A stretch of 64,000 nt of DNA from Gillisia limnaea DSM 15749. Its GTDB lineage: Bacteria; Bacteroidota; Bacteroidia; Flavobacteriales; Flavobacteriaceae. The stretch lies in assembly GCF_000243235.1 (NCBI RefSeq), contig NZ_JH594606.1, forward strand, positions 2,089,448 to 2,153,447, in the 5' to 3' direction. A program made the position numbers and the translations under genes. This document shows positions 4,055-9,359 of the stretch, in pieces (the first letter of the stretch is position 1; every line of letters begins with the position of its first letter). Under the pieces are notes generated by a model. It made no database searches, had not been told where the DNA came from, and saw nothing but the letters and a program-made list of their open reading frames with translations.

Positions 4055-5401
4055 TTAAATGTTATTGCCTTTGTATTTATTAAATGAAGCAACCGTATTT
4101 CCATCGGTTAAAGAAGCTGTAAAGGAGCATATTTGTATTAGGGATGTATAAAGGGATTGCCCTTCAGGTAGCACTAATTTTGGGACAGACCTTCTTACCA
4201 GCTTATTAAAGTTGGAATCCGGCGTGTTTTCATCTGGTAAAAATGCCTGGGTATACGTTTCCAGTAAGTGGGAAAGCATTTTGTACCCTGCAATCTCTTT
4301 ATTGATCACCTCTTCGCTTTGGTAAATTCGCTCTACGCTTATCTTGATAATATCTTTGATCTGGGCCTCATAACTGCTTTTATCAAACAGCGAATGGTGG
4401 AATTCCCCGGCCAGAATGGCTTCTTCATTTTTCAGGAATAATTCCACCGCTTCGGTAATAAGTGTATTTATAGCGAGTGCCCGCAAATAACTCAACCTGT
4501 CGGCAGTAGTGGTAAGGCTGTTGTATTTTGAAGTATTGATGCTGTTTTTCACCAATTTAATAAGATATTCCAGCGCATATTCTTCATCGATCAATCCAAG
4601 GTTGATCCCGTCCTCAAAATCTATAATGGTGTAACAAATATCATCTGCTGCCTCTACCAGGAATGCCAATGGATGTCTTGCAAAAGCGATATTTTCTCCT
4701 GTTCTTATTTTTTTAAGTCCCAGTTCTTTGGAAATATCTTCAAAAATGTGTTTTTCTGTTTGAAAGATCCCGAATTTTTTGTCACCTATATTTCTGCTTG
4801 GTTTATACGGAAGGGATTCTTTGGGATATTTCGTAAATGCTCCCAGGGTGGCATAGGATAGCCGGAGTCCGCCTTCAATTCCCGGACGGTTTTCTGTCAG
4901 GATTTTAAAGCCGTTGGCATTTCCTTCGAATTTTATTAAATCTTCATATTCTTTTGCTGAAAGCTTTTCCTTAAAACGTATTCCATTTCCCAAACTGAAA
5001 TATTCCCCGATGGCTTTTTCTCCGGAATGCCCGAAGGGCGGATTTCCAATGTCATGGGCGAGTGCGGCCGCTGCGACTATTGCGCCAAAATCGTTCATCT
5101 GATAGCCGTGAATGGTATTGAGGTGTGGATGCTTCTCCAGGATCTTTTGACCCGCCAGACGGCCTAAGGATCGTCCTACCACCGAAACCTCCAGGCTATG
5201 CGTAAGCCGGGTGTGAACAAAATCGGTTTTTGAAAGCGGTATTACCTGTGTTTTATCCTGTAAACTGCGGAAAGCCGAAGAAAAAATAATCCGGTCGTAA
5301 TCCACTTCAAAACCAAGTCTTGTTTCGTTTTGCTCCTTTCGAAGGCGTTTGTTTTTATCTCCAAACCTCTTTAAGGAAAGAAGTTGTTCCCAATTCATCA
5401 T
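4055..5401 (-). CDS. dgt: deoxyguanosinetriphosphate triphosphohydrolase (HD family)
   Basis: Hydrolyses dGTP (in many homologues also other dNTPs) to the deoxynucleoside and tripolyphosphate. This controls dNTP pools and can limit phage replication. The HD metal site is clear: HTRLTHSLEVSVVGRSLG supplies the first His and LAHDIGNPPFGHSGE the His-Asp pair with the family GNPPFGHSGE motif. Length 448 matches bacterial dGTPases. Two adjacent ATG codons are possible starts. The start lies only 13 bp from repeat copy A1, whose interior carries a consensus promoter pointing into this gene. Its neighbour nrdAB, beyond the repeat array, also serves dNTP supply. Confidence 0.93.
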   Translation of the reverse strand: MMNWEQLLSLKRFGDKNKRLRKEQNETRLGFEVDYDRIIFSSAFRSLQDKTQVIPLSKTDFVHTRLTHSLEVSVVGRSLGRLAGQKILEKHPHLNTIHGYQMNDFGAIVAAAALAHDIGNPPFGHSGEKAIGEYFSLGNGIRFKEKLSAKEYEDLIKFEGNANGFKILTENRPGIEGGLRLSYATLGAFTKYPKESLPYKPSRNIGDKKFGIFQTEKHIFEDISKELGLKKIRTGENIAFARHPLAFLVEAADDICYTIIDFEDGINLGLIDEEYALEYLIKLVKNSINTSKYNSLTTTADRLSYLRALAINTLITEAVELFLKNEEAILAGEFHHSLFDKSSYEAQIKDIIKISVERIYQSEEVINKEIAGYKMLSHLLETYTQAFLPDENTPDSNFNKLVRRSVPKLVLPEGQSLYTSLIQICSFTASLTDGNTVASFNKYKGNNI

Positions 5402-5414
5402 TTTTTATCGTTTA

Positions 5415-5548
5415 TTTCTCCCGCAGAACCCGCAGATTTTCGCTGAATGCTCTGTTTAGTGAATATCTTCAAAATTATAAATTATTCGTTTCTAACACAA
5501 TGCCAATAAAGTCTTTTTTCTGCGTGGCTCTGCGAATTCTGCGGGAAA
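5415..5548 (-). repeat. inverted-repeat-bounded element, copy A1
   Basis: 134 bp bounded by TTTCTCCCGCAGAACCCGC on one side and the inverse of TTTCCCGCAGAATTCGC on the other, with further CGCAGA-type repeats inside each end. It is one of five near-copies between 5415 and 6811. The AT-rich centre holds the candidate dgt promoter. In the gene-sense orientation (minus strand) each copy sits just before a GxxExxY start or fragment, or in this case before dgt. Confidence 0.85.
5470..5500 (-). promoter_or_regulatory. predicted promoter of dgt inside repeat copy A1
   Basis: On the minus strand TAATTTTG (5477 to 5470) matches the Bacteroidota -7 consensus TAnnTTTG exactly. A TTG at 5500-5498 lies 20 bp further upstream, within the usual spacing for the -33 element. 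Transcription would begin near 5463, giving a leader of about 60 nt that contains the repeat's terminal inverted repeat. The equivalent positions in the other four repeat copies are degenerate (for example TAATTTTA or TAATTTCA), so only A1 keeps the full match. Confidence 0.5.
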
Positions 5549-5557
5549 ATTGAACAT

Positions 5558-5617
5558 TTATTGTCTATTTAAATATAGCGCTCCAAGAATTTTATAGGCG
5601 ATCTCATTTTCATCCAT
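5558..5617 (-). pseudogene. truncated GxxExxY 5' fragment 1
   Basis: Nineteen codons and a TAA stop, reading MDENEIAYKILGALYLNRQ. They match the beginning of the intact gene at 6167 (MDENEISYKIRGAIF) and then diverge and terminate 10 bp before repeat A1. The same leader of about 40 bp separates the ATG from repeat A2 as in the intact copy. Too short to be functional as a nuclease; whether the peptide is made is unknown. Confidence 0.75.
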
Positions 5618-5653
5618 AGAATTTTAGATTTAGTTTATTATAAGATTCCTTTT

Positions 5654-5786
5654 TTTCTCCCGCAGAACTCGCTGATTTTCGCAGAATGCTTTATTTAGGG
5701 ATTCTCTCTAAAATTATAAATTATTCTTTTTTAACTCAATTCCAATAAAGTTTTCCTCTGTATGTCTCTGCGAATTCTGCGGGAAA
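5654..5786 (-). repeat. inverted-repeat-bounded element, copy A2
   Basis: 133 bp, same structure as A1, beginning 3 bp downstream of the intact GxxExxY stop codon (on the minus strand). It therefore marks the 3' boundary of the complete unit and the 5' boundary of truncated fragment 1. Confidence 0.85.
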
Positions 5787-5789
5787 TCC

Positions 5790-6167
5790 TTAGAGTCCAT
5801 TTACTTTTCTATATATACCGTTATTAATATTTTCTACATTAAAGTTTACCAAAATAGCCAATTTTAACTTGGTTAGTTTTAAATAAGTAAGAACTTGTTT
5901 GTGATGAACTTCGGCCAAATTTTCGACGGACTTAACTTCAATAATTACTTTTTTCCCTATTAATAAGTCCAGGCGGAATCCTAGTTCCAGTTTCGTTTCC
6001 TCATAAATAACAGGTAAAGGAATTTCTTTTTGAACTTCTAAACCTTCCTTGAAAAGTTCATATTCCAATGCGGCAACATAAACCGATTCGAGAAGACCTG
6101 GTCCAAGTGTTTTATAAACTTTAAAAATAGCGCCACGAATTTTATAGGAAATCTCATTTTCATCCAT
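5790..6167 (-). CDS. GxxExxY family protein, PD-(D/E)XK-like fold
   Basis: 125 residues, the normal length for this family. The name motif is at residues 24-30 (GLLESVY). A nuclease-like D-(9)-ExK signature is visible as D67 in FRLDLLIG and E77-V-K79 in VIIEVKSVE, followed by HHKQVLTYLKLTKLKLAILVNF, which fits the core fold. The family (TIGR04256/PF13366) is widespread, often multi-copy, and of unknown function; a nuclease role is only inferred from the motif. The gene is flanked on both sides by 133-134 bp repeat copies (A3 upstream, A2 downstream), and its first 18 codons recur three times nearby as truncated fragments. Confidence 0.9.
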   Translation of the reverse strand: MDENEISYKIRGAIFKVYKTLGPGLLESVYVAALEYELFKEGLEVQKEIPLPVIYEETKLELGFRLDLLIGKKVIIEVKSVENLAEVHHKQVLTYLKLTKLKLAILVNFNVENINNGIYRKVNGL

Positions 6168-6202
6168 AGAACTTTAGATTTATTTTATTGGAAGATTCTT
6201 TT

Positions 6203-6336
6203 TTTCTCCCGCAGATTCCGCAGATTTGCGCAGAAAGCCTTATTTAGTGATTCCTTTTGAAATTATAAATTATTCTCTTTTAACTCAATGCCATTAAGGT
6301 CTTTTTTCTGCGGGGCTCTGCGAATTCTGCGGGAAA
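6203..6336 (-). repeat. inverted-repeat-bounded element, copy A3
   Basis: 134 bp copy lying immediately upstream (minus strand) of the intact GxxExxY gene, with 35 bp between the repeat and the ATG. Its -7-like box reads TAATTTCA, two mismatches from TAnnTTTG, so it would be a weaker promoter than the one in A1. Confidence 0.85.
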
Positions 6337-6345
6337 ATTGAACAT

Positions 6346-6405
6346 TTATTGTCTATTTAAATATAGCGCTCCAAGAATTTTATAGGCGATCTCATTTTCA
6401 TCCAT
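6346..6405 (-). pseudogene. truncated GxxExxY 5' fragment 2
   Basis: Same 19-codon reading frame as fragment 1 (MDENEIAYKILGALYLNRQ, TAA stop), located between repeats A3 and A4. Near-identity of the fragments to each other but not to the intact gene shows they descend from one truncated ancestor that was amplified together with the repeat. Confidence 0.75.
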
Positions 6406-6439
6406 AGAAATTTAGATTTATTTGATTGGAAGATTCTTT

Positions 6440-6573
6440 TTTCTCCCGCAGAACTCGCTGATTTTCGCTGAATGCTTTATTTAGTGATTCTCTCCAGAAT
6501 TATAAATTATTCTCTTTTAACTCAATGCCTTTAAGGTCTTTTTTCTGCGGGGCTCTGCGAATTCTGCGGGAAA
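6440..6573 (-). repeat. inverted-repeat-bounded element, copy A4
   Basis: 134 bp copy; the start-to-start spacing to A3 is 237 bp and to A5 is 239 bp, the same as A1 to A2 (239 bp), so the truncated units form a regular tandem array interrupted only by the complete gene. Confidence 0.85.
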
Positions 6574-6582
6574 ATTGAACAT

Positions 6583-6642
6583 CTATTGTCTATTTAAATA
6601 TAGCGCTCCAAGAATTTTATAGGCGATCTCATTTTCATCCAT
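6583..6642 (-). pseudogene. truncated GxxExxY 5' fragment 3
   Basis: Third copy of the 19-codon fragment, here ending in TAG instead of TAA through one base change. It lies between repeats A4 and A5. Confidence 0.75.
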
Positions 6643-6678
6643 AGAATTTTAGATTTAGTTTATTATAGGATTCCTTTT

Positions 6679-6811
6679 TTTCTCCCTCAGAACCCACTGA
6701 TTTTCGCAGAATGCTTTATTTAGCGATTCTCTCTAAAATTATAAATTATTCTTTTTTAACTCAATTCCAATAAAGTTTTTTTCTGCGTGGCTCTGCGAAT
6801 TCTGCAGGAGA
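6679..6811 (-). repeat. inverted-repeat-bounded element, copy A5 (degenerate ends)
   Basis: 133 bp outermost copy. Both ends have drifted: CTCCCTCAG instead of CTCCCGCAG on one side, GCAGGAGA instead of GCGGGAAA on the other. This suggests it is the oldest or no longer maintained copy. It abuts the terminator of nrdA. Confidence 0.8.
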
Positions 6812-6917: not shown

Positions 6918-9359
6918 TTAAGATCCGCACATCAAACAATCATCTCCTTCTGCTTCTTTAGATTGTGCGATCAATGCACGTAATTCTTCAGGAGAAAGTG
7001 AGGTGTTGGAAGATGCGGCTTTTATTTGTGCAGATGGAGAACCTGGAGCTTCCATAGGTTCTGCAAAGGCCGGTTCCGGTTCTTTTTTCTGTTCTTTTTT
7101 AAGGGTGAATTTAATAGCATCTACAGCACTCTTGGTTCTCAGGTAGTACATACCTGTTTTTAATCCGCTCTTCCATCCGTAGAAATGCATAGAGGTTAGT
7201 TTGCTATAGTTGGCGTTTTCCATGAAAAGGTTCAGCGATTGAGACTGATCTATGAAATATCCCCGGTGTCTCGACATATCTATAATATCCTTCATGCTCA
7301 GTTCCCACACGGTTTTATAGAGTTCCTTTAAATCCTGCGGAATAACATCTATATCCTGTACCGACCCGTTTGCACGCATAATCGCATCCTTCACATCATC
7401 TGTCCATAAATTGAGTTCTACCAGGTCATCAAGCAGGTGCTTGTTCACTACTATAAATTCCCCGGAAAGCACTCTACGGGTATAAATATTTGATGTATAG
7501 GGTTCAAAAGCTTCGTTGTTTCCAAGGATTTGCGAAGTAGAAGCCGTTGGCATAGGGGCAACAAGTAAAGAGTTTCTCACCCCATTTTTAACAACCTGTT
7601 TTCTAAGTTTTGCCCAATCCCAGCGTCCGCTTAGTTCTTCATCTTCAACTCCCCAAAGGTTGTGTTGAAACTGCCCTTTACTAATTGGCGATCCTTTAAA
7701 TGTAGAGTAGGGTCCTTCTTCCTGAGCCAGTTCCATGGAGGCGGTTACGGCGGCAAAATAGAGGGTTTCAAAGATCTCCTGATTTAGCTTTTTGGCCTCC
7801 TCACTGGTAAATGGCATTCTTAGTTTAATAAAAGTATCTGCAAGTCCCTGAACGCCCAATCCTATTGGACGGTGGCGCATATTGGAATTTTCGGCTTCTT
7901 TCACCGGATAGTAATTCCTGTCGATCACCCGGTTGAGGTTTCTGGTAACTCTTTTAGTGATCTTAAAGAGTTCTTTATGATCAAATTCCTTCCCTTTTAT
8001 AAACATAGGCAAAGCGATAGAAGCCAGGTTACAAACAGCGATCTCGTCCGGACTTGTAAATTCCATTATTTCCGTACATAAATTTGAGGAACGGATAGTT
8101 CCTAAATTCTGCTGATTTGATTTCCGGTTGGCAGCATCCTTATACAACATATACGGAGTTCCGGTCTCTATTTGAGATTCCAGGATTTTTTCCCATAATT
8201 CCCGGGCCCTGATAGTTTTCCGGCCTTTTCCTTCACTTTCATATTTTAGATACAGCGCATCAAATTCGTCTCCATGGATGTTGTAAAGATTGGGGCATTC
8301 ATTTGGGCACATAAGCGTCCATTTGGCATCTTCTTCCACACGTTTCATGAAAAGATCCGGGATCCACATCGCGTAAAAAAGGTCGCGGGCACGCATTTCT
8401 TCTTTTCCATGATTTTTCTTCAAATCAAGGAAGTCGAAGATGTCGGCATGCCATGGTTCTACGTACATTGCGAAGGAACCTTTTCGTTTCCCTCCTCCCT
8501 GATCTACATAGCGTGCGGTATCATTAAAAACCTTCAGCATAGGAACAATTCCATTGGAAGTTCCGTTGGTTCCGGAAATATAGGATCCGGTAGCGCGCAC
8601 ATTGTGAATAGACAATCCAATTCCGCCGGCAGACTGGGAGATTTTTGCCGTTTGCTTCAGGGTATCGTAAATTCCATCTATACTGTCATCCTTCATGGTA
8701 AGCAGGAAACAGGAAGACATTTGTGGTTTTGGGGTACCGGCGTTAAATAATGTAGGGGTAGCGTGTGTGAAATATTTTTTAGACATCAGCTCATAAGTCT
8801 CTATAGCCGATTCTATATCGTTAAGGTGAATTCCCACAGAAACACGCATCAACATATGCTGCGGACGTTCTGCGATCTCGCCGTTTAGTTTTAAAAGGTA
8901 GGAGCGTTCCAGGGTTTTAAATCCGAAATAATCATAATTGAAATCCCGGTTATAAATAATGGTACTGTCAAGCAATTCCTTATTTTCCTGGATCACTTTA
9001 AAAACTTCATCTGCCAGGAGGGGTGCTTTTTTGCCCGTTCTTGGGTTGACATACTCATAAAGATCTGTCATTACTTCAGAAAAGTTCTTCTTGGTATTTT
9101 TATGCAGGTTAGAAACAGAGATGCGCGCCGCTAATTTGGCGTAATCCGGGTGGGAAGTGGTCATGGTTGCCGAAACTTCCGCAGCCAGATTATCAAGTTC
9201 ACTGGTGGTAACCCCTTCATATAAACCTTCAATCACGCGCATGGCAACCTTTAAAGGATCTACCCTCTCATTAAGACCATAACATAGTTTCCTGATCCTG
9301 GCTGTGATTTTGTCAAACATCACCGGCTCTTTATGGCCATCTCTTTTTAATACATACAT
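6918..9359 (-). CDS. nrdA: class Ia ribonucleoside-diphosphate reductase, alpha subunit
   Basis: Reduces NDPs to dNDPs; cytosolic catalytic and allosteric subunit. 813 residues. An N-terminal ATP-cone ([22 protein letters not shown]) implies dATP activity control. Active-site elements are visible: [18 protein letters not shown] with the Asn-Cys-Glu triad, CNLASIALP for the redox cysteine pair, [19 protein letters not shown], and [10 protein letters not shown] with the radical-transfer tyrosines. The C-terminal tail ends CLMCGS, the shuttle cysteine pair. It lies 191 bp after nrdB on the same strand. Start chosen at the ATG that begins the ATP-cone. Confidence 0.97.

Follow-up and report, generated by a model that had tools for sequence, protein, structure and literature searches.

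A stretch of 64,000 nucleotides from Gillisia limnaea DSM 15749 (contig NZ_JH594606.1), hereafter the window, raises the question of whether a small GxxExxY gene and the repeats alternating with it belong together, and what the encoded protein does with these repeats. The initial annotation, made from the letters alone, had described five elements of approximately 134 bp rich in CGCAGA, one intact gene, and three truncated copies. Our analysis confirmed this composition at positions 5415-6810, where five inverted-repeat elements accompany a single complete GxxExxY gene and three fragments of 19 codons each, and recovered the coordinates and spacing (Table 1). The elements were 134-135 bp long and 83-92% identical in pairwise comparison, and matching positions in successive elements were separated by 238, 550, 237, and 238 bp. 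Each of the three fragment frames reads MDENEIAYKILGALYLNRQ. The arms had been described as terminal inverted repeats; inverted arms indeed exist, but instead of a plain terminal repeat each contains a series of three short units at steps of 9-10 bp, CCCGCAGA-nnn-CGCAGA-nnnn-CGCAGA.

Table 1. Positions of the array components and adjacent genes in the window
Feature	Position	Strand	Remark
Dgt, dGTP triphosphohydrolase, neighbour	4055..5401	-	TIGR01353
Inverted-repeat element 1 (arm, AT-rich spacer, arm)	5415..5549	.	hairpin z -4.6
Truncated GxxExxY fragment 1, 19 codons and stop	5558..5617	-	
Inverted-repeat element 2	5654..5787	.	
Intact GxxExxY / PDDEXK_3 gene, 125 aa	5790..6167	-	V122-N123, the pair predicted to go with CGC
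Inverted-repeat element 3 (arms 6204-6236 and 6305-6337)	6204..6337	.	hairpin z -4.3
Truncated GxxExxY fragment 2	6346..6405	-	
Inverted-repeat element 4	6441..6574	.	hairpin z -3.6
Truncated GxxExxY fragment 3	6583..6642	-	
Inverted-repeat element 5, degenerate	6677..6810	.	hairpin z -1.2
NrdA, ribonucleotide reductase alpha subunit, neighbour	6918..9359	-	TIGR02506

The elements at 5415, 6204, 6441, and 6677 were folded (the one at 5654 was left out), and all surpassed their shuffled counterparts except the copy at 6677. Rfam returned only chance-level matches, far under the family cut-off. When one copy was used as the query in a whole-genome search, the window copies were recovered far above chance (E 1e-44 to 5e-32). 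The initial annotation had proposed following the 134-bp element through the genome and its relatives; the full element was found nowhere else in the 3.97-Mb genome, and what is dispersed in it are short arm-like matches. The spacers containing the fragments were 92-98% identical among themselves and 88-93% identical to the start of the intact gene. Because they are closer to one another than to the gene, the array looks like a truncated unit, lacking approximately 312 bp of the gene, that was multiplied by tandem duplication, in line with the amplification of a truncated unit proposed initially.

The window protein matched PF13366 (E=2.5e-39) and TIGR04256 (E=7.4e-40) with 134.7 and 136 bits, above the curated cut-offs of 22 and 35, respectively. 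No other domain was present at E 0.001 or better, including Y1 (HUH) and DDE domains. Twelve alignment columns were invariant in 20 proteins, among them the catalytic-type residues E27, D67, E77, K79, Q91, and Y95; residues of the D..ExK..Q.x.x.Y type are the Cas4/RecB motifs. No solved structure matched the protein by sequence. Its structure model (pLDDT 93, pTM 0.86) yielded a single Foldseek match in the PDB at E 0.001 or better, namely SSO0001 (4ic1; E 9e-4, TM 0.57-0.60), a Cas4, followed with weak scores by alkaline and lambda exonucleases. The protein is thus predicted to fold like a minimal nuclease of the Cas4/lambda-exonuclease type, a likeness that extends to the motif residues. It differs from Cas4 in its length of 125 aa, in its own repeats, in the lack of any cysteine, and therefore of a four-cysteine Fe-S cluster, and in its neighbours in the window, which are the dGTPase gene and nrdA instead of cas genes. 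The pN/pS values among five orthologs were 0.10-0.22 (dS was saturated in several pairs), and the gene is under purifying selection.

Of 80 genomes sampled from the phylum, 39 contained TIGR04256 genes, and we examined whether such genes are generally bracketed by matched arms by aligning the left flank to the reverse complement of the right flank and comparing the score with those of mismatched partners. The first set comprised 75 loci with 73 genes, 72 of them usable (two loci lacked an intact frame and one flank was too short), and the second comprised 80 loci, of which 79 were usable (one flank too short); after one duplicate was dropped, 150 genes were pooled. The median score was 31 for own arms versus 18 for mismatched arms, and for 91 of the 150 genes the own partner ranked above 95% or more of the mismatched ones. 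High scores were also obtained outside Bacteroidota, in Anabaena (58), Nostoc (51), two Acidobacteria (54 and 52), and a member of Planctomycetota (31), with further values of 27 in Nitrospiria and 24 and 22 in Neomarinimicrobiota; a third Acidobacteria locus exhibited no arm match (score 15). GxxExxY genes occurred in eight plasmid records, and among the three plasmid loci inspected, a Bacteroides case lying between radA and the next gene had clear arms, and a search for a further record with an unoccupied site gave none.

As a control, the ORFs of twenty regions (19 of them of 20 kb) and of the window were scored for flanking inverted repeats, with a cut of 28 chosen for convenience. This score was reached by 12 of 19 GxxExxY genes versus 10 of 365 other ORFs. 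The ten comprised two Y1 transposases, three 23S_rRNA_IVP genes, one GxxExxY gene overlooked by the filter, two neighbours of GxxExxY genes, and two unidentified frames. GxxExxY genes across Bacteroidota, and at loci of several other phyla, sit between inverted CRCRRAK arrays; flanking repeats are present at loci other than that of the window.

The motif is 7 bp long (CRCRRAK) and phased at approximately 10 bp. Six-base matches at 9-bp spacing numbered 1.04 per arm versus 0.07 in shuffled sequences and 0.13 at a distance of one kb, and other spacing peaks were at 10, 19-22, and 30 bp. Each gene was labelled by its leading heptamer class, provided that at least three copies lay inside 150 bp of the gene. 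Labels could be given to 105 of 151 genes and, at a distance of 1 kb, to 2 of 151 control stretches; a clear motif was not found in the other 46 genes, nor in 53 of 116 held-out genes. The arms appeared in the layouts > gene < and < gene >, and as full > < pairs beside the gene.

Arm similarity increased with protein identity (Mantel 0.317, p 0.001; highest of 999 permutations 0.104; 66 syntenic pairs removed beforehand), and motif classes changed 30 times on the protein tree versus a mean of 61 and a minimum of 55 in 300 shuffles, with host relatedness contributing to both tests. Base 7 of the motif (T or G) changed only 3 times on this tree (shuffled mean 23, minimum 18). On a 174-gene tree, the number of changes was again 3 for base 7 (mean 48, minimum 41), and it was 22 for base 2 (mean 56, minimum 48). 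Thirteen relatives from other genera, with at least 65% identity and at loci without nrdA or dgt in flanks of approximately 3 kb (longer for one), kept CGCAGA/CGCTGA arms on at least one side. The motif tracks the protein rather than the host.

An alignment scan for residues associated with motif base 2 singled out residue 122, in the last strand of the model. A first rule, fixed on 101 genes before the first new set, paired I with CAC and V or A with CGC and agreed with 96 of the 101. In the first new set (116 genes, 63 labelled), it was right in 49 of the 61 genes with I, V, or A (Fisher 4e-6), and in the second (22 genes, 6 labelled) it was right in only 3 of 6; the failures were mostly V without a following N. 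A second rule, in which [VA]N goes with CGC and everything else with CAC, fitted 99 of 105, 58 of 63, and 6 of 6 genes across the three sets, where the 58 of 63 are not blind because the rule was refined after the first new set had been seen, and the 6 of 6 cannot discriminate because all six are CAC. The new sets partly overlap the first in source genomes. Pooled, the second rule held in 163 of 171 genes and in every GC tertile. GC content as a confounder was rejected, the flank GC being 0.404 versus 0.405 in the two groups. Among 19 columns in which both I and V are frequent, column 122 gave p 4e-23 and the next best 5e-6. Independent supported tree pairs numbered 4-5 for the association and 0 against (3-4 versus 0 in the 174-gene tree), too few for significance. 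The link between residue and base suggests that the protein recognises its own repeats. Taken with the matched arms, recognition of the arms is strongly implied by these comparisons, which agrees with the initial annotation in tying the PD-(D/E)XK-like protein to the repeat.

We then searched 16 genomes of the genus for the arm pattern CCCGCAGANNNCGCAGA with at most one mismatch, using the reversed pattern as a control. Matches numbered 15 in the own genome, 23 in G001, 16 in G011, and 19 in G012; G003 and G010 had 6 apiece, G007 and G009 had 4 apiece, and the remaining eight genomes had 0-3. The control gave 0-1. Exact arms away from the gene were found in G001 (10), G011 (11), the own genome (2), G012 (6), and G010 (3), and none in the gene-carrying G003, G007, and G009. 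A close GxxExxY gene was detected in the own genome, G001, G003, G007, G009 (with a stop), and G011. It was not found in G012 (82% complete) or G010 (80% complete), both of which have exact arms. For G012, an initial reading as arms without a gene was dropped, the contig stopping approximately 300 bp beyond nrdA.

In a survey of 199 family genomes, all of them at least 95% complete, GxxExxY genes (called at E 1e-10 or better) were present in 47 and the exact arm pattern in nine, every one among the 47 (p 1.2e-6). Of the nine genomes whose gene reached at least 65% identity, six had the pattern and three lacked it, whereas it was present in 3 of the 190 others (p 8.5e-8). Six of the nine pattern-positive genomes had matches more than 3 kb from any detected GxxExxY gene. 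The dispersed copy number was low, with 0-11 exact arms per genus genome and 1-8 in the nine positive family genomes. The initial annotation had treated repeat and gene as belonging together, and this part of it holds, the arms matching their cognate partner and occurring, in the family survey, only in GxxExxY-carrying genomes. Neither of the two outcomes that it had named as refuting was thus observed, as GxxExxY genes at other loci also have repeats at their flanks.

The gene adjoins nrdA also in G001, G003, G007, G009, and G011, and the whole nrdA-dgt interval of G007 and G009 consists of a single gene between CGCAGA arms; no arms were found in that of G004 and G015. Entry of the unit therefore predates the separation of these species, and its multiplication took place in the lineage of the window. 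In G005 and G008 (L074, L075), an unrelated frame occupies this interval, and the site may therefore be a hot spot. Relatives (L070, L072, L150) had a different intergenic repeat at or near the site, which resembles GGGCGTTCCCCTTTGGGGCGGGC and contains AGCTC/GAGCT parts. Elsewhere (L146, L147, L160, L168, L169), CGCAGA arms often lay amid other short repeats (GAACCTTGAACC, GTGAATAGTGAATA, CACGAAT), and such mixed arrays look as if they share intergenic landing sites.

The own genome contains three further complete GxxExxY genes and one fragment, 54, 49, and 36% identical to the window gene. One gene (L036) is flanked by CACAAAG-type repeats, another (L037) has seven CACAGAG/CACTGAG-type arms as a tandem array, and the third (L038) has CACGGATT-type repeats and further repeats. 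The L037 array, with elements of approximately 117 bp on both sides of the gene (L037:709-1800), is a second tandem array in this genome, and a whole-genome search found its element restricted to its own gene, with 8 matches, all inside C2:1500510-1501603. In 200-bp flanks, opposite arms scored 29, 37, and 36 in three of the four genes and 19 in the L051 copy, and arms of different genes scored 14-22. In three many-copy genomes, the median identity between GxxExxY proteins was 32, 39, and 34%, with one of seven G127 rows (L416) probably a false frame, and cross-arm scores were at background. Such low identity between copies argues that the gene itself does not multiply.

These features were compared with known systems. 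RAYT genes lie between inverted cognate repeats, repeat and protein trees are congruent, and genomes contain distinct single-copy types with scattered repeats and tandem clusters beside the gene, according to PMC2817692 and PMC3116915. GxxExxY genes resemble this arrangement in lying between inverted repeats, in most cases with a clear motif, and in repeats that evolve with the protein; they also share distinct types per genome, scattered repeats, and tandem clusters by the gene. However, RAYT proteins have a Y1_Tnp domain whereas GxxExxY proteins are PD-(D/E)XK (PF13366), and REPs are GTAG-headed palindromes numbering typically in the hundreds, whereas GxxExxY arms are phased heptamer arrays and few per genome. 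Neither enzyme nor repeat is homologous to RAYT/REP. Terminal inverted repeats around one small gene, together with gene-less short forms, recall MITEs and insertion sequences, but the GxxExxY elements lack a DDE or Y1 domain and a detected target duplication. A comparison of own and mismatched flanks gave no such signal, with 2.74 and 2.76 matching bases, respectively, over 78 elements; matches of 8 and 13 bases at single elements do not exceed what a few outliers would produce. The lack of target duplications speaks against DDE-like cut-and-paste. In the open literature (5.39 million papers, subscription journals being outside), we found nothing on a pairing of GxxExxY with repeats; GxxExxY occurred in two papers, in PMC8934634 as an annotation near a reverse transcriptase, and PDDEXK_3 was absent.

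On balance, we consider it probable that GxxExxY is a repeat-recognising nuclease with cognate REP-like elements, similar to RAYT/REPIN in its working and unrelated by descent. Such a protein would recognise its own 7-bp motif in an array where 2-4 copies follow each other at steps of one helical turn, presumably as an oligomer reading the array through its C-terminal strand. Two inverted arrays bracket the gene, and solitary or paired arrays are scattered in the same or related genomes. We infer that the protein mobilises the arms: with the RAYT-REPIN proposal as a model, it would cut or nick at paired arms and thereby copy or move arm-spacer-arm elements, mostly short ones and rarely its own gene. 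In the window, a gene-deleted unit appears to have been multiplied afterwards by tandem duplication.

Other explanations were weighed against this reading. The arms may have a regulatory or structural function for the gene, as an operator, a terminator, or an mRNA hairpin, the protein being an autoregulated nuclease and nothing moving. Arms at the very gene ends and capable of forming hairpins would suit this idea, and a self-controlling DNA-binding protein would also yield a motif that tracks the protein; nevertheless, we regard it as quite unlikely, as the arms at the 5' and 3' ends are mirror images, six of the nine pattern-positive family genomes have solo arms at a distance from every GxxExxY gene, and some genes have alternating arrays, or full paired elements on one side only. 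A role in defence or DNA processing is unlikely; the arms would then be landing sites for a Cas4-like nuclease, which would trim or protect the ends of chromosomes or DNA that has been captured. In its favour are the modelled fold nearest to SSO0001 and lambda exonuclease, PADLOC matches to Cas4 models, which were weak (E 0.008-0.02), and the many dissimilar copies per genome. However, there was no significant match to a defence family, 50,697 phage records contained no relative, viral contigs contained one locus among 51 candidate stretches, and each arm set is apparently private to one gene.

A passenger role of the GxxExxY gene, with the arms moved by a transposase unrelated to it, appears very unlikely. 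Y1 transposase genes with flanking inverted repeats do share two 20-kb regions with GxxExxY genes (L357:3922-4468 and L348:15080-15542), but the motif varies with the GxxExxY protein and with two of its residues, which no mover explains. The strict form of the initial proposal, in which the 134-bp repeat and the gene constitute an autonomous self-amplifying element, did not hold up well and seems highly improbable to us. Local amplification in the window and the second tandem array would fit it; on the other side, complete elements are absent elsewhere in the own genome, gene copies within a genome are as distant as 32-39% identity, no target duplication was detected, and the amplified units run head to tail, as expected of tandem duplication.

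The reading of a repeat-recognising nuclease may be extended, more tentatively and with slightly less than even confidence, to the GxxExxY proteins as a whole, as sequence-reading nucleases each private to its own heptamer arrays, which spread REP-like elements and whose residues 122-123 form, with base 2, a partly readable code. The anonymous TIGR04256 family would become assayable through its fold, its paired DNA target, and the residue-to-base code, and the arms would account for a class of unexplained intergenic repeats of Bacteroidota. If the reading is true, GxxExxY would be a second way, through a non-homologous enzyme, of arriving at the RAYT/REPIN arrangement, and together with 23S_rRNA_IVP it would imply that repeat-propagating systems of such layout arose independently from several small proteins unrelated to each other. 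Small, programmable-looking nucleases that read phased short motifs would also be of interest to protein engineers.

Two further observations were made on flanking repeats. At L144, a direct repeat of approximately 40 bp (GCGTCGCTACGGCACA...GGGTTGTTG) in the gene flanks lies on both sides of the element. The 23S_rRNA_IVP (four-helix-bundle; PF05635, TIGR02436) genes, with 11 family matches in the own genome, likewise lie between inverted arrays of short direct repeats, for example AGTAATC and TTACGAG (loci L379-L408), as in L358:5033-5384, L347:16898-17282, and L357:16149-16503; the protein is unrelated to GxxExxY, and the repeats differ, with steps of about 7 bp. Their own arms had a median score of 27 versus 18 for mismatched arms, and of the 27 loci that were usable out of 30, 16 had an own partner scoring above 95% or more of the mismatched ones.
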